From an uncultured Pirellulaceae bacterium (GTDB lineage: Bacteria; Planctomycetota; Planctomycetia; Pirellulales; Pirellulaceae), in contig CALDHM010000026.1 in assembly GCA_937941455.1 (NCBI GenBank), positions 1 through 46,531 on the forward strand: a DNA stretch of 46,531 nt. The letters are read 5' to 3'. Numbering within the stretch: the stretch's first letter is position 1; each line of letters opens with the position of its first letter. The notes beneath the pieces are model-generated. The model searched no databases and was not told the origin of the DNA. It was given only the letters and a program-made list of their open reading frames with translations. This document shows, one piece after another, positions 10,701 to 41,761 of the stretch. The position numbers and the translations under genes are program-made.

Positions 10701-11333
10701 TCGGCAGTATTCCTTGATTGCATACCGGGAATCGGCGGCAAAATCGTCACAATCCGATGAATTGGGGCGATTGATGCCGTCGATAAGAAGATTGCCTCAT
10801 CATTTGCTGACGGGTTGTCCGTCGCGATTGCCAGCAAGGCCCGCGTACGTCCGACAGTCTCCCCCAAAAGCGACTCGCGGGGGACATGACGCCCCTTAGC
10901 TGATGATCAGGTCCACTACAGTGCGGTGCGGTCAGCGGGTATGAAGGTGTGTTCATGACGCAGGGCCGCTTTCCTTGCTGGAACATTCAGGGGAACTAAA
11001 ATAGAGGCTGTATTTCTCGCAGAAAACGCCGCTTTAACTTGTCAATTCCGCCGGTTCGTGCTCAGCTTTGTGGCCCACCGCGTCTCGCAGTATCCAGAAC
11101 CGGATGAGACGGTCCTTGAGCCGGTGTTATGATGGCTTACTGCCGACGTTTGCTGCAATTTTCCACATTTCCAGCGCTCCTGGAGCGCGGAATGCAACCA
11201 AACAAGATGAACTGACTTTTTTGGGTGCCCTGTCACCCACGGGAACGGAGTGCGCGCGGACCGCACCATTTGCCCCGCTACTCTGCGTCTCAATACACGC
11301 TAATTGGATTCTGTCGAAAAACGCAACACGCTT
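10701..11333. other. 633-base gap between folA and the polysaccharide locus; no gene seen
   Basis: Neither strand holds a reading frame with recognisable protein character. Two structures stand out: a C5/G5 stem (10861-10865 with 10879-10883) enclosing a small gcga-c-tcgc hairpin, and a perfect 15-base palindrome gcgctcctggagcgc (11174-11188). As the first intergenic region before a 35-kb run of + strand genes, it probably holds the promoter and control sites of the locus. No convincing -35/-10 pair was identified. Confidence 0.4.
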
Positions 11334-12728
11334 ATGACTAAAATTTGCTGCATCGGAGCTGGCTACGTGGGTGGGCCGACCATGGCAATGATCGCCCACA
11401 AGTGTCCGAAGGTCGAAGTTCATGTGGTGGATATCAACCAGGCGCGCATCGACGCTTGGAATTCCGACGTGCTCCCGGTCTATGAACCGGGGCTCTACGA
11501 GATCGTCGCCGCCTGCCGCGGTAAAAACCTTAAGTTCTCCACCGCAATCGATCAGGCGATTCGCGAGGCCGACATTATCTTCATCTCAGTAAATACGCCG
11601 ACGAAAACGTTCGGTGCCGGTGCGGGCCGTGCGGCGAATCTGGAATACATTGAACGCTGTGCTCGCAGGATTGCCGAATCGGCGCACGGGCATAAGATCG
11701 TCGTCGAAAAATCGACGCTGCCTGTTCGCACCGCCGAGGCGGTTAAACGTATCTTGTCGGCGTCGGCCAACGGCGCCACCTTCGATGTACTCAGCAATCC
11801 CGAGTTCCTCGCAGAGGGAACAGCCATTTCTGATTTGCTTGATCCGGATCGCGTGCTGATCGGTGGCGAGAACCCTGCCGCGATCGAGCGCCTGGTAGAC
11901 GTCTATGCTCACTGGGTCGATCGCAAGAAAATTCTGACCACCAACTTATGGAGCAGCGAACTTTCGAAACTGACTGCCAACGCGTTCCTGGCGCAGCGGG
12001 TGTCATCGATAAACGCGATCTCGGCGCTCTGCGAAGTCACCGAGGCCAACGTCGATGAGGTGGCGGCAGCGATCGGCACCGATTCGCGAATCGGACCGAA
12101 ATTTCTCAAAGCTTCCGTAGGCTTCGGCGGTTCGTGCTTCCAAAAGGACATTCTCAATCTGGTCTATCTCTGCGAGCACTACGGCTTACACGAAGTCGCC
12201 GAGTATTGGGAGCAAGTCGTCAAGATGAACGACTACCAAAAGGCAAGATTTACCCGCAACATGGTCAAGACGATGTTCAACACAGTTTCGGGCAAACGCT
12301 TGGCCATCTGGGGATTCGCCTTCAAGAAGGACACCAACGACACGCGGGAATCGGCGGCGATCTACGTTTGCCGCGACCTGCTCCGCGAAAACGCCATCCT
12401 CAATATCTACGATCCCAAAGTCGCCCACGAACAAATCCGCAATGACCTTCGCGACTTGATGGCGAATGAAGCCGGGGAACTGAATCAACTCGATCGCCGC
12501 TTGATCGACAACAACGTCCATGTCGTCGAAAGTACGCAGGCCGCAGCTAGCGGAGCGCACGCGATTGCGATTCTGACCGAATGGGACGAATTCAAAACGG
12601 CTGACTTCGAGCGGATCTATTCCCAAATGCAGAAGCCCGCCTTTATTTTCGACGGCCGCAATATCTTGGATCACCAAGCCCTCAAGCAAATCGGATTCGA
12701 GGTCCACGCGATCGGTCGCAGGGTCTGA
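11334..12728 (+). CDS. UDP-glucose 6-dehydrogenase, animal-like subtype
   Basis: 464 residues. It oxidises UDP-glucose twice with NAD+ to UDP-glucuronic acid. The N-terminus [20 protein letters not shown] is the NAD-binding loop; E161 ([10 protein letters not shown]), K212 ([11 protein letters not shown]) and the catalytic C268 ([10 protein letters not shown]) are all present. Long blocks such as [32 protein letters not shown] and [13 protein letters not shown] closely follow animal UGDH rather than the E. coli Ugd type. ATG 11334 was chosen because it aligns with the family start; a TTG ten codons earlier is in frame. It is the first gene of the glycan locus and would supply glucuronate units. 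Confidence 0.93.
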
Positions 12729-12941: not shown

Positions 12942-14063
12942 GTGTCGCTAAATATCGTGGTGACTGGCGGCGCGGGGTTCATCGGTTGTAACTTCACACG
13001 ATTCCTGTTGCAGGGCACCGACTATCGCGTGCTGGTGCTCGACAAACTGACCTACGCGGGGAGCCGCCGTTCGCTGGTAGATCTGCTGAATCACCCCCGG
13101 TTCGAGTTCCGCGAACTCGATCTCGCGGACGGTGTCGGTATCCGGCGGGCACTCGCCGAGTTTCAGCCCGATGCGGTGGTCCATCTGGCAGCTGAATCGC
13201 ATGTGGACCGTTCCATCGACGCCCCGGCAGTTTTCATGGATACGAATATCCTGGGAACATTCACTTTGTTGCAGGAGATACGACGCTACCTTGCCTCGGA
13301 TGTTGCGAAGCACGTGCAAAATTTTCGCTTGATTCATTGTTCAACCGATGAAGTTTTTGGTTCGCTCGAAGACGATGCCCCGGCGTTCGTGGAAACCTCG
13401 CGCTACGCTCCGCGCTCGCCCTACTCAGCCAGCAAGGCAGCCGCCGATCACCTGGTGCACGCCTGGCAAGCCACCTACGGTGTGCCCGCCATCATCACGC
13501 ATTCCTCGAACAACTACGGACCCTACCAGTATCCCGAAAAATTAATTCCCGTCGTGATCACGCGAGCGCTGGCCGATCAACCGATTCCGATCTTCGGTAC
13601 GGGACGTCAAATTCGCGACTGGATTCATGTGAGTGATCACTGCCGGGGGCTGCTGGCTGTGCTCGAGCGCGGTCGACTCGGCGAGCATTACAACATCGGG
13701 GCGAACTGCGAACGAGAGAACCTGTCTCTCGTCCGGGAAATTTGTGCTTTGCTGGACACCCATTGTCCGCGGAGTGATGGCTGCAGTTACGCCTTACAGA
13801 TCAGCCATGTGTCCGATCGGCCGGGACACGACCATCGCTACGCGCTGAACATCGACAAGATGACCAACGAAATCGACTGGAGGCCGCAAGTGTCCTTCAG
13901 CGAAGGTTTACAGCAAACCGTGCGCTGGTATGTCAGTCATCTCGACTGGTGTCGGCACATGCTCGATCGCGCCGCCAGTTCGGCGGCCTCGACTGCGCCG
14001 CTGGCTTCGCCCAGCGCCAGTGCCAAACCGCTGCCAACGACTGTCACTTCATCAGAATCTTGA
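12942..14063 (+). CDS. rfbB: dTDP-glucose 4,6-dehydratase (RfbB/RmlB)
   Basis: 373 residues, an extended short-chain dehydrogenase. It makes dTDP-4-keto-6-deoxyglucose, the branch point to rhamnose, fucosamine-type and other deoxysugars. NAD-binding [12 protein letters not shown] (7-18), catalytic T135-D136-E137 in STDEVFG and Y161-x3-K165 in YSASK are present, with the family block [14 protein letters not shown]. The GTG start has AGGAG five bases upstream. The last 30 or so residues are an Ala/Ser/Thr/Pro-rich tail absent from E. coli RmlB, probably disordered. RmlA, RmlC and RmlD are not in the window, so the end product depends on genes elsewhere. Confidence 0.92.
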
Positions 14064-14067
14064 ACTT

Positions 14068-15366
14068 ATGCCTGGAAAATTTTCACTGAATCTCACTGAC
14101 AAAAATCTTAAGTTAGCCGTCATCGGGTTGGGCTATGTCGGCCTGCCGTTGGCCGTCGAATTCGGCAAGCGGTATCAGACGTTGGGCTTTGATATCAATC
14201 GTAGTCGGATCGATGAATTGATGGCCGGCGAGGATTCCACGCTCGAGGTCGAATCTGAAGAGTTGTCTCAAGCAAAACTTTTGACCTATTCCAATGACGT
14301 CGAGCAACTCAAAAGTTGCCAGGTGTTCATCGTGACGGTGCCGACTCCCATCGATCGACACAAGCGGCCCGACCTGACACCGCTCGTCCGGGCCAGCACG
14401 ATGCTCGGCCGCGTCATTCAGCCAGGTTCGGTGGTGATCTATGAGTCGACGGTCTACCCAGGTGCGACCGAGGAAGATTGCGTCCCCCTCATCGAGCAAG
14501 AGTCAGGGCTGAAATACAATGTCGACTTTTTCGCTGGCTACAGTCCCGAGCGGATCAACCCTGGGGACAAGCTTCACCGTCTGACAACAATCACCAAGGT
14601 GACGTCGGGTTCCACGCCGGAGGTTGCCCAGTTCGTCGATGATTTGTATCGCTCGATCGTGACCGCCGGAACCCATCGCGCCAGCAGCATCCGCGTGGCG
14701 GAGGCGGCCAAAGTCATCGAGAATACTCAGCGTGATTTGAATATCGCGCTAATCAATGAGTTGGCGTTGATCTTCAACCGGCTCGGGATCGATACCCTCG
14801 AGGTGCTCGAGGCCGCCGGAACGAAATGGAATTTCTTGCCTTTCCGTCCCGGGCTGGTCGGTGGGCATTGCATCGGTGTCGATCCGTATTACCTGACGCA
14901 CAAAGCCCAAGAGGTGGGGCACACGCCAGAAGTGATTCTTGCTGGCCGGCGCATCAATGACAATATGGGGCACTACGTCGTGTCGCAAGTCGTCAAAAAG
15001 ATGCTCAAAAAACGGATTCATGTCGAAGATGCCAATGTCTTGATCTTGGGGTTGACCTTCAAAGAAAACTGCCCTGACATCCGCAACACGCGCGTCGTTG
15101 ACATCGTGGCCGAATTCCGGGAGTTCGGCGCGAATGTCGATGTCTACGATCCCTGGGTCGATGCCGAGGAAGCCCAACATGAGTATGATCTCACGCCGAT
15201 CCCACAACCGGCCAAAGGTAAATACGACGCCATCATCTTGGCTGTGGCCCACCAGCAATTCCGCGATTTGCCCATCGACGCGATTCGGCAATGGGGCCGA
15301 CACAATTGTGTGATTTACGATATCAAATCGGTGCTCCCGCGAGATCAAATCGACGGCAGATTATAG
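14068..15366 (+). CDS. TviB-like UDP-N-acetylglucosamine 6-dehydrogenase
   Basis: 432 residues of the nucleotide-sugar dehydrogenase family. NAD loop [20 protein letters not shown], substrate/catalytic segments [13 protein letters not shown] and [11 protein letters not shown], and the catalytic Cys in [17 protein letters not shown]. These blocks closely follow Salmonella TviB and Pseudomonas WbpO, which oxidise UDP-GlcNAc or UDP-GalNAc to the uronic acid; UDP-GlcNAc as substrate is inferred. It starts 4 bases after rfbB and is probably cotranscribed. With the UDP-glucose dehydrogenase it gives the locus two different uronic acid donors. A TviC-like 4-epimerase was not found here. Confidence 0.9.
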
Positions 15367-16369: not shown

Positions 16370-17392
16370 ATGTTTTTGGATTCCGATTCCATCCTGATCA
16401 TTGCCGAAGTCGGTCTTGCCCACGAAGGTAGCTTGGGCATGGCGCATGCCTATATCGATGCAGCTGCCGACTGTGGAGTGAGTGCAGTCAAATTCCAAAC
16501 CCACATCGCCAGCCAGGAGAGCACGGCTGCCGAGCCGTTTCGCGTCAAGGTTTTTCCCCAAGACGCAACGCGGTACGACTATTGGGTCAGGACGGGATTC
16601 GCCAAGTCACAATGGCTCGAACTCGCGGCCCACGCGCGGGAGCGGGGACTTGCCTTTCTCAGCTCGCCGTTCAGCAATCTGGCGGTCGAGTGGCTGATCG
16701 AGTGTGGTGTGCCAGCTTGGAAAGTCGCATCCGGCGAGTTGACCAATTACCCGATGCTGGCCCGCATGTGCGAAACAGGCTTGCCGATTCTCGTCTCCAG
16801 CGGCATGAGCAATTGGGCCGAGCTGACAGAAACCATCGAGTTCATCCGCGCTCGACAAGTGCCGTTTGGAATTTTCCAGTGCACGACATCGTATCCTTGT
16901 CCTCCGGAGCAATGGGGATTGAATGTGCTGGGGGAATTGCGCGAGCGGTTCGCTTGCCCGGTCGGCTTGAGCGATCACAGCGGGGATATCTACGCCGGTT
17001 TGGCAGCGGTCGCGTTGGGGGCCACTATGCTCGAATTCCACATCGCGTTTTCCAAACAACAGTTCGGTCCCGATGCCAAAGCTAGTTTGACTCTCGAGCA
17101 AATCCGTTCCTTATTACAAGGCGCGAAACAGATTGCGACTGCATTGCGGCACCCGATCGACAAAGATCGTCAGGCCGAAGTGTTGCAACCGTTGCACAAT
17201 CTGTTCACAAAGAGTATCGTGGCGGCCCGACCCTTGATGGCAGGAACGGTGCTGAGTCGGGCAGACTTAGCCTTCAAGAAGCCGGGTATCGGTCTGTCAC
17301 CGTCGCGGGTGGAAACCGTCGTTGGCAAGCGATTGCGGCGGGCCGTGGAAGCAGACCATTTTTTTTCAGCGGAGGATTTCGAGTCCGAATAA
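16370..17392 (+). CDS. neuB: N-acetylneuraminate synthase family protein (NeuB)
   Basis: 340 residues, the usual NeuB length. NeuB condenses N-acetylmannosamine (or a related 2,4-diamino sugar) with phosphoenolpyruvate to give sialic acid or a nonulosonic relative. A TIM-barrel domain (about 8-275) begins IIAEVGLAHEG, a variant of the AE.G.NH.G motif, and includes KFQTH, SPFS, KVASGELTNYP, CTTSYP and GLSDHS. A C-terminal SAF (antifreeze-like) domain (about 285-340) follows. The gene order neuB-neuC-neuA with short gaps supports a complete CMP-sialic-acid pathway. Since the epimerase is NeuC-like and no Leg/Pse-specific genes are present, Neu5Ac is the simplest product, but this is inferred. 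Confidence 0.9.
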   Translation: MFLDSDSILIIAEVGLAHEGSLGMAHAYIDAAADCGVSAVKFQTHIASQESTAAEPFRVKVFPQDATRYDYWVRTGFAKSQWLELAAHARERGLAFLSSPFSNLAVEWLIECGVPAWKVASGELTNYPMLARMCETGLPILVSSGMSNWAELTETIEFIRARQVPFGIFQCTTSYPCPPEQWGLNVLGELRERFACPVGLSDHSGDIYAGLAAVALGATMLEFHIAFSKQQFGPDAKASLTLEQIRSLLQGAKQIATALRHPIDKDRQAEVLQPLHNLFTKSIVAARPLMAGTVLSRADLAFKKPGIGLSPSRVETVVGKRLRRAVEADHFFSAEDFESE

Positions 17393-17434
17393 TTGATCAG
17401 CCAAAAAAAGCTGCTGATTTTCGGTGAACCAGCC

Positions 17435-18589
17435 ATGCCTAGAAAAATCTGCGTCGTCGTCACCGCTCGTCCTAGTTATAGCCGGGTGAAAACTGCCCTG
17501 GATGCGATCCAGGCAGACCCAGAATTGGAACTTCAACTCGTCGTAGCGGCCTCAGCCCTTTTGGACCGTTACGGCAGCGTCGTGGATCAAATCGAGAAGG
17601 ATGGTTTTGCGATCCGCGAGAAGGTCTTCATGGTGCTGGAGGGTGAAAACCCTACCTCGATGGCTAAAACCACCGGGATGGGATTGATGGAATTAGCTAC
17701 GACCCTGCTCAATCTGAACCCGGATGTGGTAGTCACCATTGCCGATCGATATGAAACGATAGCGACCGCCATCGCCGGAAGTTATATGAATATTCCCGTG
17801 GCCCACATACAAGGTGGCGAAGTTACGGGTTCGATCGACGAAAAAGTACGTCATGCCGTCACGAAACTCGCGGATATCCATTTAGTCGCGTCCGAAGATG
17901 CTCGACAGCGGGTGATTCGATTGGGGGAAGATCCAGATATGGTCTTCAACACCGGCTGTCCGTCGATCGACATAGCAGCAGGAGTCGCCAAGGCGCACAG
18001 CCCATGCTTTGATCCGATGAAAAAGTATCGTGGCGTCGGCAAGGAACTCGATTTGTCGGGTGGCTACATCGTGGTCATGCAGCATCCGGTCACGACAGAA
18101 TATAAAGACGCGCGGCACCATGTCGAGCAAACACTAAATGCGGTATCGGACTGCGACTTGCCCGTGTTATGGTTCTGGCCGAATGTCGATGCCGGCGCGG
18201 ATGGAACGAGTTCCGGAATTCGCGCGTTTCGTGAAAATCGGGATGCCTCTCGGTTCCATTTTTACAAGAATATGGCTCCCGAGGATTTCTTGAAACTTTT
18301 GCTTGGTAGCAAGTGCTTGGTCGGTAACTCGAGTGTCGGTATTCGCGAATGCGCTTTTCTGGGGGTACCCGTGGTGAACATCGGTTCCCGCCAAGCCGGA
18401 CGGCAGCGCGGTCGGAACGTCCTCGATGTCGATTACGATCGGCAGCAAATTCTGGAAGCGATTCGCCACCAAGTGAATCATGGTCGTTATGAAAGTGATC
18501 CGATCTACGGCGACGGTCGAGCTGGAGAAAAAATTGCGAACGTCCTTCGCAGTTGCCCGCTCCGGATTGAGAAGAGAATTGCCTATTAA
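17435..18589 (+). CDS. neuC: UDP-N-acetylglucosamine 2-epimerase, hydrolysing (NeuC)
   Basis: 384 residues, GT-B fold. It converts UDP-GlcNAc to ManNAc plus UDP, the first step toward sialic acid. The N-terminus KICVVVTARPSYSRVK, IADRYET (102-108), HIQGGEVTGSIDEKVRHAVTKLADIH (around 124-149, with the conserved GGE and RHA..K) and LVGNSSVGIRE near residue 296 fit the hydrolysing NeuC/LegG branch. ATG 17435 was chosen because the family begins a few residues before the first strand; an in-frame TTG at 17393 directly after neuB is a weaker option. It lies between neuB and neuA in the sialic-acid module. Confidence 0.9.
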   Translation: MPRKICVVVTARPSYSRVKTALDAIQADPELELQLVVAASALLDRYGSVVDQIEKDGFAIREKVFMVLEGENPTSMAKTTGMGLMELATTLLNLNPDVVVTIADRYETIATAIAGSYMNIPVAHIQGGEVTGSIDEKVRHAVTKLADIHLVASEDARQRVIRLGEDPDMVFNTGCPSIDIAAGVAKAHSPCFDPMKKYRGVGKELDLSGGYIVVMQHPVTTEYKDARHHVEQTLNAVSDCDLPVLWFWPNVDAGADGTSSGIRAFRENRDASRFHFYKNMAPEDFLKLLLGSKCLVGNSSVGIRECAFLGVPVVNIGSRQAGRQRGRNVLDVDYDRQQILEAIRHQVNHGRYESDPIYGDGRAGEKIANVLRSCPLRIEKRIAY

Positions 18590-18604: not shown

Positions 18605-19330
18605 ATGCGTGTATTAGGAATCATTACCGCCCGCGGCGGGTCCAAAGGGATCCCGCGCAAAAACCTGTCCCAGGTGCGCGGCAAATCACTGTTGGCGTAC
18701 ACGGCTTCAGCCGCCTTGCTGAGTCGATTGACCAGAACCGTGCTCTCCACCGAAGACCCCGAGATCGCCGAGCATGGGGCAGCACTTGGAATCGAGGTCC
18801 CGTTCATGAGGCCCGTAGATTTAGCTGGTGATTCGACGCCGACACTACCGGTCCTGCAGGATGTCATACGAAAACTCGAGGCCGAAGGAGATCAGTTCGA
18901 CGCGGTCTATACTTTGCAGCCGACCAATCCACTCCGATTGACCAGCGATATCGACGGATCCATCGAGCTGATGGAAAGGACTGGCTGCGATTCCGTGATT
19001 GGCTTTAGCGATGTCGGCGAACGGCACCCCGCTCGAATGAAAATGCTCGACGAGCTAGGACGAGCCATCGATCCTCCGTTTGCTGAGCTTTTCGAGGGAC
19101 AGCGGCGGCAGGATTTACCAAAATACTATCTACGCGATGGATCCGTTTATCTAACGCGGCGCGATGTTCTCATGGAACAGAATTCGATTAAAGGGAACGA
19201 CTGCCGAGCTTGGATCATACCGGCCGCGCGCGCGCTGAATATCGACGAGCCCTTCGATTTGGAGTTGTTCGAATGGCTGCTCAGCCGAGACCCGAACCGT
19301 TTTCCCGGTCGCGCGGCCGTCGTAGCTTGA
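18605..19330 (+). CDS. neuA: CMP-N-acetylneuraminate cytidylyltransferase (NeuA)
   Basis: 241 residues. It activates sialic acid (or a related nonulosonate) with CTP to the CMP-sugar used by sialyltransferases. The nucleotide-binding signature ITARGGSKGIPRKN (7-20) is intact, and LQPTNPLR, DSVIGF and a YYLRDGSVYLTRRD segment match the family. It starts 15 bases after neuC. Specificity between Neu5Ac, legionaminate and related sugars cannot be read from the sequence alone. Confidence 0.92.
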   Translation: MRVLGIITARGGSKGIPRKNLSQVRGKSLLAYTASAALLSRLTRTVLSTEDPEIAEHGAALGIEVPFMRPVDLAGDSTPTLPVLQDVIRKLEAEGDQFDAVYTLQPTNPLRLTSDIDGSIELMERTGCDSVIGFSDVGERHPARMKMLDELGRAIDPPFAELFEGQRRQDLPKYYLRDGSVYLTRRDVLMEQNSIKGNDCRAWIIPAARALNIDEPFDLELFEWLLSRDPNRFPGRAAVVA

Positions 19331-20748: not shown

Positions 20749-22860
20749 TTGATTTACAGCGTGAAATCCGGCTATCAACTAATCTATCAATCAGAAATCG
20801 ACGGCCTCCGCGCCATCTCCGTGATGCTTGTTGTGCTCTATCATGCAGGCCTGCCTATCCCGGGTGGCTATGTGGGCGTGGATGTATTTTTTGTCATCTC
20901 GGGATTCTTGATCACAGCGTTGATTGCCAAAGAACTCGGCAATGGGACATTTTCATTGATGAATTTTTGGGAGCGGCGAATTCGTCGAATTTTCCCAGCT
21001 TCGTTAGTGACAATGCTCGCTATCTTATTATTGGGCCTGCTGATCATGATCCCACAGGATTTGGAAAATCTTGCTAAGTCGTTGATAGCTCAGGCGATGA
21101 TGCTGAGCAATGTCTATTTTTGGCGAGATGTCGATTACTTCGCCGGTTCAGCGGAAACAAAGCCACTTTTGCATACCTGGTCTTTGGCTGTCGAGGAACA
21201 GTTCTATCTCTTCTATCCACCGTTATTGGTGGCTTTGAAAAACTCTCGACGTTGGCAAATCAATGTGCTCGTTGGCTTGGCTGGATTATCGTTGGTCCTA
21301 AGCGTGATCGGTGTGGCTTATCGACCTCAAGCCGCGTTTTACTTGCTTCCCTTTCGGTCTTGGGAACTACTGCTGGGCGGATTGATCGCGCTTTACCCTC
21401 CTTCGATCACTAGCCGAGGGGTTCGTGAAGGGATGGCGATTCTCGGACTTGCGATGATTTTACTCGGAGGTCTCTTGTTCGATGCCCACACGCCATTTCC
21501 AGGACTTGCGGCCTTGCTGCCTTGCTTGGGTGCGGCTCTCTTCATCGCCGGGAATCTGTTTGAGAAAACAGTCGCCGGCAGGTTGCTCAGCTGGAGGCCT
21601 ATCGTCTTCATCGGCCTAATCTCATATTCACTGTATCTGTGGCACTGGCCCGTCATGGCGTTCATGAGATACCTTTACCTCCCATTTAATGCAACGAATG
21701 CCAGTTTTGCGGTTGCCGTCAGCCTGGGGCTGGCGACGCTTTCATGGAAGTTTGTCGAGGGGCCGTTTCGCAAATCTCACCAGATCGCCGGCCGCCAAAG
21801 GTGGCTGACAAATCTCAAACCGCGAGCAGTCGTCCTGGCTGGGATCTCGAGTCTTGCGGTAATGGCAGGTCTCGGCTCTGTTATCCTGTGGCGCAAGGGA
21901 TTACCCGAGCGATATTCGGAGGCGATGCGGCTTCTGGTGGATGATGCCACTTGGAATGGAAGTGAATGGGGCGCAACTAAAGCGGAAATTCACCGTTCTA
22001 CCTTCAAGACCGTCGGAGAGTTCAAAGATCGATTCGACTTCGTGGTATGGGGAGATAGTCACGCCCTGATGTATTACGAGGTGATTGATGAAATCTCCAA
22101 AACGCTCGGCTTGCAAGGTTATTTCATCGGCGTACCCGGGGGACCACCGATTCCCAATGTATGGCGCGGTCAAAACCGAGATTACGTAAAAGATACCCAA
22201 AAGGTTATAGGCTTCATAAAAGAATCCGGCATCCGGAAAGTGTTGCTCATCGCGCGGTGGACGTTGTACACAGAGGGTTATTCCGAAGCGGAACTCCACT
22301 TCGAAGAAAAAGGTCAGCGATTGGAGGACGGCTTGATTCGCGATGCCGAGTCGCCGCAGATTTCCACCCGGGAAGATGCCCGTCGAGCCTTCACAAACAA
22401 CATGGGGGAAATGCTGGATCAATTTGAACAAGCCGGCATCCGCGTGTGGATTGTTAAGCAAGTGCCTGAACAATTGGGACCGATTGCTATGCCTTGGCTT
22501 TTTAAAAACCTGCAATTTCCTACGGTGCCCCTGCTGGGCACCTCACCAGAACGACATCGAGATCGTCAGGCGTTTTCGGATCAATGTTTTGCACGGTGGG
22601 CTCGCTCCAATATCCAACTCGTGGAAACGCTCGATGGTTGTTTTAACGCTCAGGGAAGGCCAACGTTGACCGCTGAGGGACGTGCATGTTACCGAGACAA
22701 TGACCACCTATCCCGTTTTGGCGCTAAGTACTTGATTATGGAGCGTTTTGACGAAGTGTTTGAAGCTATCGCACAGGATATTCGCACAGAGAGCCTGTCC
22801 GAAAATATTCAAATTCCTCGTGCCAGTGAATCAAACCGGGAGTATTCGGATAAGTTCTGA
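20749..22860 (+). CDS. OafA/YrhL-type O-acyltransferase with C-terminal SGNH domain
   Basis: 703 residues. The N-terminal acyltransferase-3 domain (about 10-370) has ten or so membrane helices and begins with EIDGLRAISVMLVVLYHAG, which contains the catalytic His32, then GGYVGVDVFFVISGFLIT and FWERRIRRIFPA. The C-terminal extracytoplasmic SGNH hydrolase-like domain (about 390-700) has the nucleophile Ser in VVWGDSH near residue 434 and the Asp-His pair in DNDHLSRFG near 650. Such proteins acetylate O-antigens and exopolysaccharides across the inner membrane. The start is uncertain between TTG 20749 and GTG 20761. It sits isolated between two gaps of about 430 bases, so it may have its own promoter. 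Confidence 0.9.
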   Translation: MIYSVKSGYQLIYQSEIDGLRAISVMLVVLYHAGLPIPGGYVGVDVFFVISGFLITALIAKELGNGTFSLMNFWERRIRRIFPASLVTMLAILLLGLLIMIPQDLENLAKSLIAQAMMLSNVYFWRDVDYFAGSAETKPLLHTWSLAVEEQFYLFYPPLLVALKNSRRWQINVLVGLAGLSLVLSVIGVAYRPQAAFYLLPFRSWELLLGGLIALYPPSITSRGVREGMAILGLAMILLGGLLFDAHTPFPGLAALLPCLGAALFIAGNLFEKTVAGRLLSWRPIVFIGLISYSLYLWHWPVMAFMRYLYLPFNATNASFAVAVSLGLATLSWKFVEGPFRKSHQIAGRQRWLTNLKPRAVVLAGISSLAVMAGLGSVILWRKGLPERYSEAMRLLVDDATWNGSEWGATKAEIHRSTFKTVGEFKDRFDFVVWGDSHALMYYEVIDEISKTLGLQGYFIGVPGGPPIPNVWRGQNRDYVKDTQKVIGFIKESGIRKVLLIARWTLYTEGYSEAELHFEEKGQRLEDGLIRDAESPQISTREDARRAFTNNMGEMLDQFEQAGIRVWIVKQVPEQLGPIAMPWLFKNLQFPTVPLLGTSPERHRDRQAFSDQCFARWARSNIQLVETLDGCFNAQGRPTLTAEGRACYRDNDHLSRFGAKYLIMERFDEVFEAIAQDIRTESLSENIQIPRASESNREYSDKF

Positions 22861-23299: not shown

Positions 23300-24724
23300 G
23301 TGCGCGTCGACTGTCAAAAAATCCTTGACCAACAATTTCCTTTGAATTCGACAACCGCCAAATTGCGAGAGAATCCGGTCACCAGCTCGCTGAGCAATCT
23401 GTTCTCTGCGTGGATAAGATACGGTACGCGGCTAGTCGCGGGTATTTTAGTGGCCAGGTCGTTAGGGCCGGAGCTGAAAGGCCAATTTTCCAATCTGGTT
23501 TTGATCATCGACCTGTACCTGCCGTTTTTGTTATTCGGCTATGCGGGCGGAGTGTTGTATTACGGAATCCGTAATGTAATCGACCTGCGAACCTTTTTCT
23601 GGACAGGGTTCGTATTGGTTTTGAGCATCGGACTGGTCGTCGTACCACCATTATTCTATTTGAGCCAGACTGGTGGGTTGGGAACGATTGCCGCCGAAGT
23701 GGACCCATTTGAGATTGGACTGATTCTCTCCATATGTCCTTCCGCACTGTTGAACCAATATGCCCAACGCGTGCTGCAGTCGTTTCATATGTTCCGAGCG
23801 GCAAATTTCAGGGAAGTTGTCGGCTCCCTAACGACGCTGGTGTACTATGTCTGCACGGCGTGCATTAGTACCATCAACCTGACACATGCCATCATTGGTT
23901 TGGCAATCGGATATTATTTGCAGACATTGCTCAACCTGATATTCGTAATTCGCATTATCGGAGTTCAAAACACTTGGGATTGGGCCAATATTTTCAAGCC
24001 CTGGCACTACGGAATCCGCGTTTGGCTGAATTTTATTATTAGCCGATCGAGTGAGCAGTTTGATCATATCGTGCTGACTTTTTTACTCAATCCTCAGGCT
24101 TACGGCATTTACACCGTTGGGGTGAGCTTGAGTAGCATGGTTGGTCATATTCCCAACAGTTATGCACAGGTATTTTTCAATCAAGTCGCGGTGCGGGAAG
24201 TGGATCATGCGGTGCGGTTGTACGCGATGGCTCAGCGATTTACCTTTGCCTTTACGACTGCCGTAGCAGTGTTGTTGGCGATCGTGGCCTATCCGCTGGT
24301 GCGATTTATGTATGGCACGGCCTATGGGGACGCTGGAATGGTGATTATCCTGTATACGCCGGGATTGATTTTTCAAGCGGCCGCTCGGATGTCGGTCAAG
24401 TTGTATGCGGGACTGGGGCGACCACTCAAAAACAGTTTGGTTTATTTTGTTGGTTTTGGAGTAAGTTTGCCCTTTTATATTCTGTTGATTCCCCGGTTTG
24501 GAATCTTCGGTGCCGCGGCAGCATCCAGCATCGCTTACTTCGCCGCGTTCGCGTTTTCGTTTTGGCAGATTCACCGGGAGTTCGCCGTCAAACTCAGAGA
24601 TTTATTCGGTGTCCGACGTGAGGATCTTCAGGTGTTGCAACAGCAATTGCAAAAGGTGCCGGTGTTTCGGCGGTTTTTTACGGTTCCCGCAAACGAGATT
24701 TCGAAGACCTCGATTACTGAATAA
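23300..24724 (+). CDS. Wzx-like polysaccharide flippase (MOP superfamily)
   Basis: 474 residues with about 12-14 hydrophobic helices and short loops. The N-terminal pattern SNLFSAWIRYGTRLVAGILVARSLGPELKGQFSN (split here for reading: helix 1 then A..LGP...G.F) is typical of Wzx-type lipid-linked oligosaccharide flippases, as is the paired helix repeat in the second half. It would move undecaprenyl-linked repeat units across the inner membrane for polymerisation. The start is uncertain: GTG 23300 gives an unusual polar N-terminus, and an in-frame TTG at 23342 would remove it. It begins a compact run of genes, with the sulfotransferase 14 bases downstream. Confidence 0.85.
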   Translation: MRVDCQKILDQQFPLNSTTAKLRENPVTSSLSNLFSAWIRYGTRLVAGILVARSLGPELKGQFSNLVLIIDLYLPFLLFGYAGGVLYYGIRNVIDLRTFFWTGFVLVLSIGLVVVPPLFYLSQTGGLGTIAAEVDPFEIGLILSICPSALLNQYAQRVLQSFHMFRAANFREVVGSLTTLVYYVCTACISTINLTHAIIGLAIGYYLQTLLNLIFVIRIIGVQNTWDWANIFKPWHYGIRVWLNFIISRSSEQFDHIVLTFLLNPQAYGIYTVGVSLSSMVGHIPNSYAQVFFNQVAVREVDHAVRLYAMAQRFTFAFTTAVAVLLAIVAYPLVRFMYGTAYGDAGMVIILYTPGLIFQAAARMSVKLYAGLGRPLKNSLVYFVGFGVSLPFYILLIPRFGIFGAAAASSIAYFAAFAFSFWQIHREFAVKLRDLFGVRREDLQVLQQQLQKVPVFRRFFTVPANEISKTSITE

Positions 24725-24738
24725 AAAGGCTCTGTGAC

Positions 24739-25701
24739 ATGGTGTTGCCCAACTATCTGATTATTGGAGAGCGTCGTTCTGGCACGACGACCTTGGCCAA
24801 TTATTTGAAAGATCATCCGGAAATCTTCATTCACCCGCAGTTGGACATGGGTTACTTTATCGATGAAGCGGTTCGCGGTCGCCGAACGTGGTTGGAAGGG
24901 GAAGTCGACACGAAGGCCTGGAGACTTACTCACGACGCTGAGAAGTATGCTGCGTTGTTCGAACCTCCGCCATCGGCGCGGGCCATCGGCGAAAAAAGCG
25001 CAGACTATTTGTTTTGGCGTCCTGCCCATGAGCGGATCAAAGCGATGGTGCCGGATGTCAAACTGATCGCCATTTTGCGGGATCCGGCTGAACGGGCCTG
25101 GTCGCACTATTGGAACGAAGTCGGCAAGGGCCGCGAAAACTTGTCCTTTGAAGAAGCGCTCAGAATCGAAGTGGAAAGATTGGCAAAAAGTGCCTACGCG
25201 CGCGACCACCTGTCTTACAAAACCCGAGGATTTTACGATCAATCTGTGTCGGATCTTCTAAAAGTATTTCGACGTGACCAAGTCCTAGTGATTTGTTTGG
25301 AACAATTGATCGAGCAGCCAATTCCTCAATTGCGAAAGGTGTACGAATTTCTGGAAGTAGATCCGGCTCGGGGGCTTGGTTTGGCCGGTGCGAGATTCAA
25401 TACAAACTGGACGATGATGCAGCGGCCTTGGGTAAAGTTGCCGGTGCTGGGCCAAGTCGAGGAGGCGGCTTTCGCAACCTGCAGAACTGTCATTCGTCGC
25501 CTGACGAGAGATAAAGATCAAACACGAAAGTGGTTGCAAACACTGTTTTGGTGTTCGCGTTTGCCGCAAGCCAAGATCGAAAAACCAGCCCGATTGTTGG
25601 AACAGCTTCGGGAAGAATACCAGGAGAGCATCGATCGGCTCGAGCTCTTGCTGGATCAGGAATTTCAATATTTTCGAGGAATCAAGGGAGCAAGACGATG
25701 A
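24739..25701 (+). CDS. Sulfotransferase (heparan-sulfate sulfotransferase-like fold)
   Basis: 320 residues. The PAPS 5'-phosphosulfate loop is GERRSGTTTL (10-19) and the 3'-phosphate-binding motif is RDPAERAWSHYW (114-125), with the intervening IGEKSADYLF. These match carbohydrate sulfotransferases of the Sulfotransfer_1 class, which include the N- and O-sulfotransferases of heparan sulfate. It would transfer sulfate from PAPS to a glycan in the cytoplasm before export; the acceptor is unknown. Its stop overlaps the start of the PIG-L deacetylase by 4 bases (ATGA), a sign of coupled translation. No PAPS-forming genes are in the window. Confidence 0.88.
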   Translation: MVLPNYLIIGERRSGTTTLANYLKDHPEIFIHPQLDMGYFIDEAVRGRRTWLEGEVDTKAWRLTHDAEKYAALFEPPPSARAIGEKSADYLFWRPAHERIKAMVPDVKLIAILRDPAERAWSHYWNEVGKGRENLSFEEALRIEVERLAKSAYARDHLSYKTRGFYDQSVSDLLKVFRRDQVLVICLEQLIEQPIPQLRKVYEFLEVDPARGLGLAGARFNTNWTMMQRPWVKLPVLGQVEEAAFATCRTVIRRLTRDKDQTRKWLQTLFWCSRLPQAKIEKPARLLEQLREEYQESIDRLELLLDQEFQYFRGIKGARR

Positions 25702-26648
25702 GTCGTTGGTTCGATCGAATTTTACGGCGAACGTCCAAGTTCCTCGCTCGGCAAGGTCCCTATCGGTTCGCCTTGAAAAAATGGAATGCAATCGATGATA
25801 TTGAGTTGGCGGCGCAAGTGCTGGGTACTGAGTTTTTTCGTTATCAAGTCGAGCCGACCCCCTTGCCGTTCCAAGACTTCCAATCCTTCGTCGTGTTAGC
25901 GCCTCACCAAGACGACGAATCTTTAGGGGTTGGCGGAACTATGGCCCTAGCTCAATCCTATGGCATTAAAACGACCGTGATCTATACCACCGAAGGCGAG
26001 CAAATGGAGGGGCCGACAAAAACCGGGATTACGGCGGAAGTCCGGGAACGAGAGGCTCGCCGGGCGCTTAACCTTGTTCAAGCTGACTTTAAAAAAATAA
26101 GCGTGTCCAATATAAAACCAGAACCAACGGCTGCCGATATTGAAAACTTGTCAGCGATGTTGGAGGACCTGCGCCCAGATATTATCTTTATTCCCTGGTT
26201 GCTGGATGTGCCGACACGTCATCGATTAGCCAATCATATGCTCTACTGGGCCGTTAAACCACTTGCAAATTTCTCGCCGGAAATCTGGGGATATCAGGTG
26301 CATAATAGCCTATATCCGAATGGCATCGTGGATATCACGTCCACGATCGACATAAAACGCAAGATGTTGGAGTGTTTCGAAAGCCAGAATGAGAACTATA
26401 AAAGATACGATCATTTAGGCGTCTGTTTAGCAGGATGGAATTCACGATATCTGGCCTACTCCCCGCATAAAACTCCATGGTTTGCCGAGTTGTTTTTCGC
26501 CTTGCCATTGACAGTTCATTGTGAAATGATCGAAAGGTTTTATTTTCCAGATTTGGAACAAACCTACCGTGGCGATGCCACCGTTATTCGGGGCGCGAAA
26601 AAAATGGATGCGGCGATGCGCGCTCGTATGTCCCCGAAGCTAGCTTGA
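25698..26648 (+). CDS. PIG-L family N-deacetylase (LmbE-like)
   Basis: 316 residues. The Zn-binding motif of the PIG-L/MshB family is seen as APHQDDES (H70, D72, D73; usual form HPDDE), and D170 with H175 in LDVPTRHRLANH supply the later ligand region. The family removes acetyl groups from N-acetylglucosamine-type sugars. The chosen ATG has AGGGAG about 7 bases upstream inside the sulfotransferase gene and overlaps its stop by 4 bases; the frame is open further upstream but that part is the shadow of the sulfotransferase. The coupling suggests the free amine it makes may be the site that is sulfated. The stop touches the next gene's ATG. Confidence 0.85.
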   Translation: MSRWFDRILRRTSKFLARQGPYRFALKKWNAIDDIELAAQVLGTEFFRYQVEPTPLPFQDFQSFVVLAPHQDDESLGVGGTMALAQSYGIKTTVIYTTEGEQMEGPTKTGITAEVREREARRALNLVQADFKKISVSNIKPEPTAADIENLSAMLEDLRPDIIFIPWLLDVPTRHRLANHMLYWAVKPLANFSPEIWGYQVHNSLYPNGIVDITSTIDIKRKMLECFESQNENYKRYDHLGVCLAGWNSRYLAYSPHKTPWFAELFFALPLTVHCEMIERFYFPDLEQTYRGDATVIRGAKKMDAAMRARMSPKLA

Positions 26649-28060
26649 TGAACGCCACAATTTTTCTCAACATCACTCACGGCTTTCAGGCACGGATGCT
26701 ATTGCGCAGTGGAATTTCCGAAGAATTGCTCCACCGCGGTGCCAGGTTGGTGATTTGCAGTCCGAACGCCGACGAACCCTATTTTGCAAAAGAATTCGAT
26801 CAACCGCAAATTGTTTTGCAGACCACACCGACCAAGACGTCGGTTTGGGAAGATTATCTGTCGACGTGGCGGCAGTACATGTTGATGAATCCGCGTTTGG
26901 GCGGCACGTTGAATCACAAACGAGAGACTCTGCGCCGCCAACGGCCGCTCCGTTATCTGGCCTCACGCTGCCTTAATTTGTTTCTGGGCAATCTGCCGTT
27001 TCTGCGTCGCAGCTACATGTGGGGCGAATCCAAATTGTTTGCTGCTCGCGAATTCGATCCGGTATTGACCCAATATCAGCCGGATTTGGTGGTCACGGGC
27101 ACTCCCGGTTTCAATCGTCACGATGTTCATGTGTTGCGGTCTGCAAAGCGTTTGCGAATTCCGACAGCGACGGTGATGCTCTCGTGGGACAACCTGACAT
27201 CCAAAGGGTACATGAATGGGATCCCGGACTATCTGTTGGTATGGAGCGAATTGATGGCGAAGGAAGCCGTCGAGTACCATGACTATCCACCTGGACAGAT
27301 TTTTCAAACCGGCGCGGCGCAGTTCGATCATTACTACCGGGCCCAGGAGACAACGGACAAGGCAGCTTGGCGAGCCAGCCAGCGAATTCCCGCCAATGCC
27401 TTTTTGATGATGTATGGCACGATCAATCCCGCGATTTGCGAGCATGAAGTCGATATCCTGAAGACCATCATTGCGGCCATGCGGACGGCGGTAATCGAGC
27501 GGCCTCCATTTTTGTGGATTCGTCTGCATCCTCAGGTCGTGCACGGCAACACGAGGCGTTCCCTGGAACCATTTCTGGCCCTGCGAGCCGATGATGTTTA
27601 CGTTGAAATTCCGCCGGTGAACGATAGCAAATTAGAGTGGGATCTCCCGAAAAAAGATACCGAACACCTTCGTAGTTTACTGGCCAGTTCGGACATGGTG
27701 ATCACGACCAGTTCGACGCTCAGTATCGATGCCGCCTGCGCTGGGACGCCGATCGTCAATGTCTTTTTCGATGGCCGCCGGGTACATCCTGCCCAGTCCG
27801 TCGCACGGTTTAAAAAGTACACACATTACGCGAAAATTTTGTCCACTGGCGGGATCTATATCGCGGATACGCCCGAAGAATTCACCAGGGCCATGCACCG
27901 CTACGCCGCAGATCGGCAAGCCGATGCGGAGCAGCGGGAGCGGATCATCGCTCAACAGATCGGCACTCTGGATGGACGGGCGGGCATTAGGACAGCGGAA
28001 CAACTATTGGCCTTAGCCGTCGGCCACCGCGATTCGGCAGGTTCCCGACGGCGAACATGA
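26648..28060 (+). CDS. Probable GT-B glycosyltransferase (capsule/CDP-glycerol-transferase-like)
   Basis: 470 residues without a confident family name. The C-terminal half has the layout of GT-B enzymes acting on capsule or teichoic-acid-like polymers: WIRLHPQ near residue 293, and TTSSTLSIDAACAGTPIVNVFF near 350-372, the usual nucleotide-phosphate contact. The N-terminal half includes VTGTPGFNRHDVHVLRSAK and a SWDNLTSKG segment. It would add a sugar or polyol phosphate in the cytoplasm. The ATG shares a base with the stop of the deacetylase gene, and the 3' end overlaps the next gene by 4 bases. An HP and an S/T-rich motif also occur in some bacterial sialyltransferases, so that role cannot be excluded. 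Confidence 0.65.
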   Translation: MNATIFLNITHGFQARMLLRSGISEELLHRGARLVICSPNADEPYFAKEFDQPQIVLQTTPTKTSVWEDYLSTWRQYMLMNPRLGGTLNHKRETLRRQRPLRYLASRCLNLFLGNLPFLRRSYMWGESKLFAAREFDPVLTQYQPDLVVTGTPGFNRHDVHVLRSAKRLRIPTATVMLSWDNLTSKGYMNGIPDYLLVWSELMAKEAVEYHDYPPGQIFQTGAAQFDHYYRAQETTDKAAWRASQRIPANAFLMMYGTINPAICEHEVDILKTIIAAMRTAVIERPPFLWIRLHPQVVHGNTRRSLEPFLALRADDVYVEIPPVNDSKLEWDLPKKDTEHLRSLLASSDMVITTSSTLSIDAACAGTPIVNVFFDGRRVHPAQSVARFKKYTHYAKILSTGGIYIADTPEEFTRAMHRYAADRQADAEQRERIIAQQIGTLDGRAGIRTAEQLLALAVGHRDSAGSRRRT

Positions 28061-32198: not shown

Positions 32199-33656
32199 AT
32201 GAGCAATGTCTCTGACGCCCCAGCGAATTTTCTGCCCGTGACTCCTGCTGGCACCTTGGGGGGGATGCCGACGGACGGTTCCCGGCTTAATTCGCTCCCC
32301 CTACAGCAACCACAAACCTCGGTTCCCGTGGCCAAGGTGAACAAGCTGTTCATTGCCATGTTCGTGATTCTCGGGATGACGTGCCTGTGGAATTTGAACG
32401 GGATCACGGCCATCATGTTCGAGATGAATCGATTGATGTCGATCGTGATTCTGCTGAGCGGTTTGTATTTGATTTTCGCGGCTTACGCGTCATGGAGTCG
32501 CGGTTTGGGAGTAGCCGGATGGTCATTCGTTTTGTTTTTGTTGACCTACCTAGCGATTGGTTTTGCGGTCAAACAAGACGTTTCCATGTTGATTAGTTAC
32601 CTCAACTCGGTGTTCGTCATTTTCGCCGGTGCGATGGTCAGCTATCATTTCGCGCAACGGGGCCAGACGAACAAGCTCTTGATTATCCTCTGCGTGCTCG
32701 CGGCGCTGGGCGCATACACCATTTATTTGAGCCCATTTTTGGGGGATTATTATGCCCAGATGCAAAAGCTCGATCGCATGGCAAGACAGGGGCGGTGGAT
32801 GGGATTTTTTGCCAATCCCAACGACACGGGGATGGCGGCAGTCCTCGCGTTTGTTTGTTCGCTCTCGGTCTGGCTGATCTCGGTGAAGGGAATCCGTTTC
32901 AAAAAGTATTTGCCGCCGATTGTCGGATTTTTGGCGTTGGCCGCGGTGTTGTCGTTTTCTCGCAGTGCAATGGTCACCTTCGCCCTCTTAGGTGTATTCG
33001 TTATGGTTTATTCGGCGGGACTGGGACGGCGGGCAATTGGCACCTTGATGGCCGGCATGTTTGTCTTCGCCATGACATATTGGTTTTTCACATCGGGCTA
33101 CAAGCAATATGAATGGTCCGTTCACCAGGAAAAACGGATTCAAAGCGTGGAACGATTGCTGACCTATGGAGAATTATCCCATAAAGATACCGGAGGCCGA
33201 CTCGAGGGCATTCGCGGGGGGCTGCATTATTGGAGCAAAAGTCCCATATTTGGGCATGGTTTGGGGAGTCTTCATAGAATGCCCTTCCATTATTTTGGCG
33301 GACTGGGCTGCCACAATTCGCATGTGATGGTATTGGGGGAGGTCGGGATCGTCGGGTTCGCGGTGTACCTATTGGCATTGGTTGTGTATTTGATTTCTTC
33401 ATTCAAGATTCGTTATTTGCCAGTGCGGATGTTTTCGATACTTTTTTTCTGGAATTTGATGGCCAATGGTATGGTCAGTCACAGTGTCTATAGCGATCGA
33501 AATTTTAATTTAGTGATGGGCATCGTCTTTGGTTTGCAGGCCTATTACCTGGCATTCGAAGAGCGGCAACGCTTAATGGCCCAGTTCCGGGAAAGGCAAG
33601 CGAAATTGCAACGGTTGTCGGCCGAATTCGCCGGCATGCCGATCCATACCTCCTGA
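32199..33656 (+). CDS. O-antigen polymerase/ligase family membrane protein (Wzy/WaaL-like)
   Basis: 485 residues with about ten to twelve membrane helices from residue 48 on. The N-terminal 45 residues are soluble and Pro/Ser-rich. The large periplasmic loop region contains GGRLEGIRGGLHYWSKSPIFGHG and the hallmark CHNSHVMVLGEVGIVGFAVYLL (HN..xL.E.GI.G pattern), as in Wzy polymerases and WaaL ligases; FSRSA in an earlier helix also fits. It would join undecaprenyl-linked repeat units, or attach them to an acceptor, on the periplasmic side. The ligase and polymerase roles cannot be separated by sequence. With the Wzx-like flippase it indicates a Wzx/Wzy-dependent route. Confidence 0.85.
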   Translation: MSNVSDAPANFLPVTPAGTLGGMPTDGSRLNSLPLQQPQTSVPVAKVNKLFIAMFVILGMTCLWNLNGITAIMFEMNRLMSIVILLSGLYLIFAAYASWSRGLGVAGWSFVLFLLTYLAIGFAVKQDVSMLISYLNSVFVIFAGAMVSYHFAQRGQTNKLLIILCVLAALGAYTIYLSPFLGDYYAQMQKLDRMARQGRWMGFFANPNDTGMAAVLAFVCSLSVWLISVKGIRFKKYLPPIVGFLALAAVLSFSRSAMVTFALLGVFVMVYSAGLGRRAIGTLMAGMFVFAMTYWFFTSGYKQYEWSVHQEKRIQSVERLLTYGELSHKDTGGRLEGIRGGLHYWSKSPIFGHGLGSLHRMPFHYFGGLGCHNSHVMVLGEVGIVGFAVYLLALVVYLISSFKIRYLPVRMFSILFFWNLMANGMVSHSVYSDRNFNLVMGIVFGLQAYYLAFEERQRLMAQFRERQAKLQRLSAEFAGMPIHTS

Positions 33657-38788: not shown

Positions 38789-39508
38789 ATGAATTTTTCC
38801 TACTGGGACAAAAAACTATATCCAAAACCGGAACATCGAAATGCGGTGGCCTTATTTATTAAGACTATCGAGCCCAAGATCCAACCGTATGCGACGGTCC
38901 TGGACATCGGCGCGGGAGGGGGTCAGCGCAGTCGCTATGATTTTCGCGGTAAGTGCCGAGAAATGATCGGTATCGACTTGGATCCCAGGGTAACCGAGAA
39001 TCCCTTGCTCGACCGCGGGATTGTCAGTGATGGCAAGACGATTCCTCTTCCCGATAATTCGGTCGATTTTGCCTTTTCCATTTATGTTCTGGAGCACGTC
39101 AGCGACCCGATTCAATTTTGCAGCGAAATCGGCCGGATTTTGAAACCGGGAGGCGAATTTTGGACGATTACCCCCAATCGTTATCATTACGTTGCTCTGA
39201 TCGCCGCTTATACACCGATCAGTTTTCATAAATGGTTCAACCAAAAGCGCGGGCGCGACGCGGAGGATACCTTTGAGACCTTTTATCGCCTCAATTCGAC
39301 ATCCGCGCTCCGAAAATATTTTGCGCATGCCGGACTGGAAGTGGTCCAGTTGAAAACGATCGAGTTTCGTCCTAACTATCTGCAGTTTTCAACACCATTA
39401 TTCTTGTTGGGGGCGGCCTATGAGCGCCTGGTGAATTCCTCGGAAATTTTTTCAAACCTGCGGGTCAACCATATCGCAGGTTTTCGAAAGGTGCTTGGTT
39501 CAGCATGA
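38789..39508 (+). CDS. Class I SAM-dependent methyltransferase (Methyltransf_11-like)
   Basis: 239 residues. Motif I VLDIGAGGG (37-45), the acidic residue in GIDLD (61-65) and the IYVLEHVSDP segment (post-motif) fit small-molecule methyltransferases of the UbiE/Methyltransf_11 type. ILKPGGEFWTITPNRYHY is a usual late strand. The acceptor, presumably a sugar or lipid-linked intermediate, is unknown. The stop overlaps the start of the two-domain oxidoreductase by 4 bases (ATGA), so the two are likely made together. Confidence 0.85.
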   Translation: MNFSYWDKKLYPKPEHRNAVALFIKTIEPKIQPYATVLDIGAGGGQRSRYDFRGKCREMIGIDLDPRVTENPLLDRGIVSDGKTIPLPDNSVDFAFSIYVLEHVSDPIQFCSEIGRILKPGGEFWTITPNRYHYVALIAAYTPISFHKWFNQKRGRDAEDTFETFYRLNSTSALRKYFAHAGLEVVQLKTIEFRPNYLQFSTPLFLLGAAYERLVNSSEIFSNLRVNHIAGFRKVLGSA

Positions 39509-41739: not shown

Positions 41740-41761
41740 GGGGGCGAATGTTTTCGCCCCC
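41740..41761. terminator. Perfect GC-rich hairpin overlapping the first possible start of the heparinase gene
   Basis: Arms gggggcgaa (41740-41748) and ttcgccccc (41753-41761) pair fully with a 4-base tgtt loop. A weak T-rich stretch (gttctattttt) follows, as in an intrinsic terminator, 82 bases after the preceding gene. The ATG at 41748 lies inside it, so either the real start is further downstream or the hairpin hides the start. Confidence 0.5.

Follow-up and report, generated by a model that had tools for sequence, protein, structure and literature searches.

A sulfotransferase and PIG-L gene pair recurring beside sialic-acid-type genes suggests a sulfated coat sugar in bacteria

What is the product of two overlapping genes, one for a sulfotransferase and one for a PIG-L-type deacetylase, in an uncultured Pirellulaceae bacterium? 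The genes lie in a stretch of 46,531 nucleotides (the window), which is one entire contig (CALDHM010000026.1) of a 4.04 Mb genome assembled in 77 contigs (GCA_937941455.1). The original prediction saw in them a possible split counterpart of NDST, the animal enzyme that fuses an N-deacetylase with an N-sulfotransferase. The recurrence of this pair beside sialic-acid-type genes suggests a bacterial sulfated coat sugar, made by two steps that resemble the first step of heparin synthesis. The reading that we favour, and hold to be probable without being confident of it, is that a horizontally mobile cassette makes a sulfated glycan of the nonulosonic-acid (sialic-acid) type and that the pair carries out its modification step, with PIG-L acting before the sulfotransferase in the cytosol. 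The pair comprises three elements:

24739..25701, + strand: sulfotransferase dependent on 3'-phosphoadenosine 5'-phosphosulfate (PAPS), 320 amino acids (Sulfotransfer_3; 3-OST/NST fold class); from Pfam, sequence matches in the Protein Data Bank (PDB), fold, and a subfamily in 12 loci
25698..26648, + strand: PIG-L-type de-N-acetylase subfamily, 316 amino acids (HQDD; DxPx[KR]H instead of HxDH; WGYQVHN); from Pfam, motifs, fold and profile scores
25698..25701, + strand: ATGA, the PIG-L start overlapping the sulfotransferase stop; the same 4-base overlap occurs in the same-genus locus L008

Both proteins pass their Pfam gathering scores (Sulfotransfer_3, 67.5 against 27 bits; PIG-L, 58.5 against 28.2 bits). 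The PIG-L open reading frame (ORF) starts with the ATG at 25698, and the predicted 4-base overlap is borne out by the ATGA that the two genes share. The prediction had also called the motifs of both proteins intact: GERRSGTTTL, RDPAERAWSHYW and HQDD are indeed all present, but the C-terminal HxDH, a hallmark of the PIG-L family, is replaced by PTRH, in which the last His alone is retained. PF02585 (PIG-L) is the sole Pfam match of the deacetylase at an E cut-off of 0.001, which is not of the NDST type HSNSD-CE (PF12062). Because hydropathy reveals no membrane segment in either protein, both probably act in the cytosol, ahead of the flippase.

Is the pairing more than an accident of one genome? 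The closest relative found is the same-genus genome G093 (locus L040, titled Pirellulaceae; L and G numbers are our own for loci and genomes). It has the identical order of flippase, sulfotransferase, PIG-L and glycosyltransferase with the same 4-base overlap, and its pair is 68% and 74% identical to that of the window. A pattern scan derived from the PIG-L alignment, run on one genome per species across 84,980 species, gave 24 pattern matches, 11 of which were true relatives (L040-L050); the patterns were two short peptides, and recall is therefore low. A sulfotransferase stands beside PIG-L in 10 of these 11, the exception being L043. A search through 395 genomes of the class, centred on that of L046, added G834, which has the pair (L088), and G736, which has PIG-L without the sulfotransferase (L089). 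With the window counted, this PIG-L subfamily is represented by 14 loci, and in 12 of them the two genes adjoin, separated by anything from an overlap up to 66 bases, in five phyla (Planctomycetota, Calditrichota, Acidobacteriota, Pseudomonadota and Bacteroidota), so that their predicted conservation as neighbours holds. One holder is a named strain, Portibacter marinus 10MBP4-2-1 (L048). Loci L037 and L038, the same place as L040, were excluded from alignments, and the L050 PIG-L, cut by a contig end, was retained.

Profile scores separate both subfamilies from their kin: PIG-L scores 244-470 bits within the subfamily and at most 170 in all others, and the sulfotransferase 420-492 bits against at most 179. 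High-scoring PIG-Ls are rare (2 of 149 genomes of the family, 1 of 392 of the phylum, and 4 of 395, 1 of 274 and 1 of 247 in other surveys, survey centres included). Surveys led by the sulfotransferase (255 and 247 genomes) found three high-scoring sulfotransferases, all three adjoined by PIG-L. As controls, regions of ~1.5 kb on each side were taken: a PIG-L was present there in none of 17 loci with lower-scoring sulfotransferases, and 1 of 49 other PIG-L loci matched the sulfotransferase profile, a fusion (L095). The adjacency is beyond chance, because order and overlap are kept in the same-genus genome, the pair recurs in 12 of 14 loci and the controls are nearly empty.

The dependence between the two genes may be one-way. 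All 12 subfamily sulfotransferases are paired, a biased count in that 9 were found by PIG-L-led searches only, and PIG-L stands alone in 2 of 14 loci; this would fit a need for a deacetylated acceptor, and hence N-sulfation. The correlation of sulfotransferase distances with those of PIG-L is 0.81 over the 12 pairs (0.77 when the closest pair is dropped), and with those of NeuB 0.71 and 0.43 over 8, all uncorrected for kinship. Carriage on plasmids was considered and dropped: tblastn of PIG-L, the sulfotransferase and the fusion against 72,556 plasmids found no match spanning 80% of the query. In G834, a second sulfotransferase gene (L088:7560-8579) lies between a 2-hydroxyacid dehydrogenase and the sulfotransferase of the pair.

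Which sugar would such a pair modify? Three genes upstream in the window point to a nonulosonate:

16370..17392, + strand: NeuB-type nonulosonate synthase; from Pfam (PF03102) and distribution, with NeuB_NnaB the best model, below its equivalog cut-off
17393..18589, + strand: NeuC, hydrolysing UDP-N-acetylglucosamine (UDP-GlcNAc) 2-epimerase; TIGR03568, 393 bits against a cut-off of 236
18605..19330, + strand: NeuA-type CMP-nonulosonate cytidylyltransferase; from Pfam, with PseF the best equivalog, below its cut-off

The best PDB match of NeuC is the bifunctional GNE epimerase/kinase (4zht), and that of NeuA is CMP-N-acetylneuraminate synthetase. Flanks were usable in 11 of the 14 loci (the window, L040, L041, L042, L043, L046, L047, L048, L049, L088 and L089), the contigs of L044, L045 and L050 being too short to judge neighbours. 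Neighbours were counted by phmmer with window proteins at E 1e-5 (1e-4 for the flanks of G537, G539 and G1057), a search that remote homologues may escape. Homologues of NeuB, NeuC and NeuA share a contig with PIG-L in 10 of the 11, at a distance of 20-22 kb in L043, and the genome of L044 carries all three together with a 2-hydroxyacid dehydrogenase on a different contig. The NeuB subtype of the window (above 300 bits) is found in 9 of 11 genomes bearing this PIG-L. Among 15 genomes near that of the window, its own included, only two have this subtype, both of them pair holders, and the others reach at most 172 bits; 8 of the 13 non-holders were searched for PIG-L and are without it, the other 5 falling outside that search. 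L089, which has no sulfotransferase, carries PIG-L immediately ahead of NeuA and NeuB, and the gene upstream of PIG-L is a family-2 glycosyltransferase, judged by eye. Because of this adjacency PIG-L is, as far as gene order tells, linked with nonulosonates also where this sulfotransferase is absent.

Sulfate activation genes accompany the pair in some loci. In L042, the gene for a bifunctional ATP sulfurylase-APS kinase (APS, adenosine 5'-phosphosulfate; 800 against a cut-off of 669 bits) immediately precedes the sulfotransferase; APS kinase, CysD, CysN and CysQ come directly before NeuB in L049, and in L046 APS kinase, CysD and CysN lie upstream of NeuB at a distance of two genes. The genes of all three loci exceed their NCBIfam cut-offs (bifunctional enzyme, APS kinase, CysD, TIGR02034 for CysN, and CysQ). 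CysQ removes 3'-phosphoadenosine 5'-phosphate, the by-product of sulfotransfer. Flanking ORFs of relatives were scanned selectively, and at least three relatives have PAPS genes in the cluster; because these three hold the means of making PAPS, gene content makes sulfation by the pair-bearing cluster very likely.

The original prediction had proposed a structural comparison of the sulfotransferase, and this comparison assigns the window enzyme to the heparan 3-O/NST class, above the protein, polyketide-type and small-molecule classes. The model (mean predicted local distance difference test score, pLDDT, 88.6) is nearest to a bacterial structure, the sulfotransferase 3RNL of Alicyclobacillus acidocaldarius (Z 27.9, 2.8 Å over 238 residues). 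Next come the heparan 3-O-sulfotransferases (Z 23.4-24.7, with 3-OST-3 at 24.7) and the NDST sulfotransferase domain 1nst (Z 23.4, 2.9 Å over 239 residues), followed at lower Z by the olefin-synthase and curacin enzymes (~16), protein TPST (~14) and small-molecule SULT (~12-13). Sequence matches give the same ranking of 3rnl, then 3-OST, then NDST. A protein or small-molecule sulfotransferase was ruled out, the model being closer to 3-OST/NST. With 3-OST-1, -3 and -5 the window enzyme shares the fold, the 5'-phosphosulfate-binding motif (5'PSB) and the EKS/EKT region; unlike them it is bacterial, has a different acceptor context and belongs to a subfamily in which only 9 of 12 members retain the EKS/EKT Glu. 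Two phosphosulfate motifs are retained in all 12. The EKS/EKT Glu is the catalytic base of heparan sulfotransferases.

The PIG-L protein (model pLDDT 83.7) has a reshaped active site. Its closest folds include BshB and archaeal diacetylchitobiose deacetylase (Z 22.9-24.4), with which it shares HxDD and one zinc His, and its best profile matches are sugar N-deacetylases, the hydratase GalB being among the matches too. All 12 aligned sequences keep the metal ligands, HxDD and a His that is the third of them, and HQDD occurs in the window and in 13 of 13 subfamily relatives. Unlike BshB and diacetylchitobiose deacetylase, the subfamily has DxPx[KR]H in place of HxDH and, in addition, YxVH[NT]: both patterns are present in 13 of 13 relatives and in none of 49 other PIG-Ls, whereas HxDH is found in 0 of 13 relatives and in 46 of the 49 (L002, L087 and L095, which is the fusion, being the remaining three). 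What HxDH no longer does could fall to the His of WGYQVHN, which the whole subfamily has, and the basic residue at the family's Asp position might greet an acidic sugar.

In the favoured reading of a sulfated nonulosonate cassette, NeuC, NeuB and NeuA would yield CMP-nonulosonate. PIG-L would strip the N-acyl group from the nonulosonate, or from an adjacent amino sugar, on the nucleotide sugar or the lipid-linked repeat in the cytosol, and the sulfotransferase would then move sulfate from PAPS to the same residue. Wzx would carry the repeat across the membrane, and Wzy would polymerise it. We infer the acceptor, the order of steps, the mobility and the site of sulfate, which may be the freed nitrogen, following the logic of NDST, or a hydroxyl; N-sulfation by the pair is possible.

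Several observations weigh against this reading. The scan of 30 window ORFs found no PAPS genes among them, the rest of the genome lying outside that scan. In three of the 12 sulfotransferases the EKS/EKT Glu is replaced, by Phe in L042 and by His in L044 and L045. PIG-L is without the His and Asp of HxDH, and its fold also serves the hydratase GalB (Z 23.7), so that deacetylation is not certain. NeuB reaches 304 bits where the Neu5Ac synthase equivalog asks for 400, matching the broader family PF03102 only; as NeuA also falls short of its equivalog, the nonulosonate cannot be named. L043 and L089 hold PIG-L without the sulfotransferase, and the NeuB of L089 is of another subtype (399.4, just under the Neu5Ac-synthase cut-off, 399.65). 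No Neu genes were found in 15.5 of 17.9 kb examined in L047. G534 has a second NeuBCA set, also of the window's subtype, and the 19 kb examined there contain no pair; the natural fusion lies away from Neu genes.

The rival that survives best keeps the cassette and changes the atoms. The amine freed by PIG-L would be re-acylated or left free, and the sulfotransferase would O-sulfate the nonulosonate, as WSCD1 does at C8 of Neu5Ac, or another sugar; it is credible, with something short of an even prospect, and overlaps partly with the favoured reading, which allows either N or O. By its fold the enzyme cannot be assigned to the 3-O or the N group (Z 24.7 and 23.4), the motifs are likewise undecisive, and PIG-L alone in two loci suggests that its product is useful by itself. 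Sialate O-sulfation is moreover known chemistry, described for animals as the work of the sialate 8-O-sulfotransferases WSCD1 and WSCD2 (PMC9304399). These likewise sulfate a sialic-acid residue with PAPS; unlike the window sulfotransferase, they are animal Golgi membrane enzymes acting on sialoglycans. The adjoining PIG-L in 3 of 3 sulfotransferase-led finds speaks against the rival, as dependence on a deacetylated acceptor would predict it, in a small sample.

The opposite, stricter proposal is that deacetylation followed by N-sulfation evolved in bacteria independently of animals, with the C5 amine of a nonulosonate freed by the reshaped PIG-L and sulfated by its partner, so that an N-sulfo-neuraminate-type residue would enter exported polymers. 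This is conceivable and, in our judgement, rather unlikely. A second, single-chain solution would then be the fusion in G1057 (L126:9573-11471, contig C1), which came from a class survey around the Chromatiales locus L044. It is a single ORF of 632 residues with PIG-L at residues 106-228 and Sulfotransfer_3 at 340-558, both over their cut-offs. Its PIG-L part (L095), also without HxDH, groups with the subfamily at a support of 92/94, below the tool's star, on a long branch of 2.4, and this placement is unsure; its sulfotransferase part is of a different kind from that of the pair. If the grouping holds, PIG-Ls of this kind would have come together with a PAPS sulfotransferase on two or more occasions. 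Queries with 27 window proteins, NeuB included, gave no match elsewhere in the 19.5 kb around the fusion. The fusion gene adjoins a second sulfotransferase gene and an FkbM-type methyltransferase.

The remaining neighbours of the window bear on the proposal from which we started, in which a split analogue of NDST would modify the GlcNAc units of a polymer like a glycosaminoglycan, built of glucuronate and GlcNAc. The window cluster is of the Wzx/Wzy polysaccharide type, and Pfam scans of its 30 ORFs found GT4/GT1-type transferases and two AsnB-like proteins in addition to the flippase and polymerase proteins:

11304..12728, + strand: nucleotide-sugar dehydrogenase; TuaD/UDP-glucose type is the best equivalog, below that cut-off
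13930..15366, + strand: TviB-type UDP-GlcNAc C-6 dehydrogenase; NF011729, 627 against 592 bits
19350..20318, + strand: D-2-hydroxyacid dehydrogenase; Pfam, homologues in 7 of 11 loci
20749..22860, + strand: O-acyltransferase (AT3-SGNH); Pfam
23300..24724, + strand: Wzx-type flippase (MurJ-like by Pfam), directly upstream of the sulfotransferase; Pfam and hydrophobicity
26645..28060, + strand: putative glycosyltransferase, weakly BFO_1060-like (NCBIfam, 51 against a cut-off of 200 bits), its start overlapping the PIG-L stop
32199..33656, + strand: Wzy/O-antigen-ligase-type polymerase; Pfam
41748..43712, + strand: heparinase II/III-fold protein; Pfam

The heparinase-fold gene that had been predicted is thus present, and two nucleotide-sugar dehydrogenases stand where a UDP-glucose dehydrogenase had been named; the first misses the TuaD cut-off, and the second, whose true start is probably downstream of 13930 (the NF011729 alignment runs from residue 59), is of the UDP-GlcNAc type. 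These genes and the heparan-type fold of the sulfotransferase favour a glycosaminoglycan, as do dehydrogenase homologues close to the pair in G093, G834, G537 and G539; because such dehydrogenases recur, these polymers may contain uronic acids. NeuBCA, however, is found more constantly in the neighbourhood, in 10 of 11 loci, the heparinase-fold gene is matched in the same-genus genome G093 only, and the dehydrogenase adjoining NeuB is the TviB-type one. The best-conserved neighbours being nonulosonic-acid genes, with sulfate-activation genes in some loci, the predicted glycosaminoglycan-like set with its GlcNAc substrate is not upheld, and we regard this rival as improbable.

The likeness to NDST itself survives in part. 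A deacetylase-type protein is coupled with a PAPS sulfotransferase of the same fold class, the pairing is conserved, and a natural fusion exists. Unlike NDST, the two are separate ORFs in 12 of 12 pairs; they are bacterial, free of membrane segments and set in a nonulosonate cluster with no evidence of heparosan. The NDST1 deacetylase is described as an Agd3-like (beta/alpha)7 barrel (PMC10864358), whereas that of the window has a PIG-L fold, and because these folds are unrelated the pair is at most an analogue of NDST. A genome search for PF12062 matched 0 of 12 genomes, with no control matching either. The least probable alternative gives the PIG-L-fold protein a different, GalB-like task in the nonulosonate pathway, as a zinc hydrolase or hydratase, with the sulfotransferase alone modifying the glycan: the loss of HxDH in every relative and the presence of GalB among close folds and profile matches are to its credit, and it is opposed by the invariant metal ligands, by best profile matches to sugar N-deacetylases and by the WGYQVHN His, which could substitute for the missing role.

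How does the favoured cassette sit with what has been described? Among the matches listed from the open PubMed Central literature (titles and abstract openings), none describes a sulfated nonulosonate from bacteria or nonulosonate clusters that include a deacetylase with a sulfotransferase, and the main text of a study of Vibrionaceae and Moritella nonulosonate clusters contains 'deacetylase', 'PIG-L' and 'sulfotransferase' 0 times (PMC7371886). In extracellular polymers of granular sludge, more N-linked than O-linked sulfate is reported and nonulosonic acids are said to co-occur with sulfation (PMC10483923). More N-linked than O-linked sulfate is reported for Pontiella exopolymers as well, and that paper of 2020 describes prokaryotic sulfotransferases on glycosaminoglycans as not then known (PMC7356697). 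If the N-sulfation reading were true, the pair would supply enzymes for this N-linked signal. A study of artificial NDSTs in E. coli calls the expression of active NDST in bacteria a key bottleneck for heparin synthesis; it is described as screening heparosan-specific, CE4 and CE18 deacetylases (PMC13353177), and 'PIG-L' occurs 0 times in its main text. A soluble bacterial deacetylase-sulfotransferase pair, or a natural fusion, would interest heparin-synthesis engineers, and the pair is a concrete candidate for expression and assay, with the named strain P. marinus 10MBP4-2-1 among its holders.

Some further features recur in these clusters. Homologues of the glycosyltransferase downstream of the pair are found in L040-L043, L047-L049, L088 and L089; as a functional lead, the name BFO_1060 was not met in the open literature among the matches listed. 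The D-2-hydroxyacid dehydrogenase accompanies NeuA in 7 of 11 loci (for example window 19350-20318, L041:13964-14953, L046:8037-8975 and L048:5228-6121), with a distance correlation of 0.92 to NeuA over the 7 loci; we know of no role for it in nonulosonate synthesis. AsnB-like amidotransferases recur in several clusters (window 30138-32003 and 35690-37573, L042:5351-7075 and L091:1-1416), in L042 and L091 directly after NeuA and a methyltransferase, and perhaps amidate an acidic sugar. A 479-residue protein without a Pfam match (window 44854-46293) is found at the same position in G093 (L038:18125-19522). Finally, a zinc alcohol dehydrogenase fused to a Gfo/Idh/MocA oxidoreductase (window 39505-41658) adjoins the heparinase-fold gene, an order that is kept in G093.

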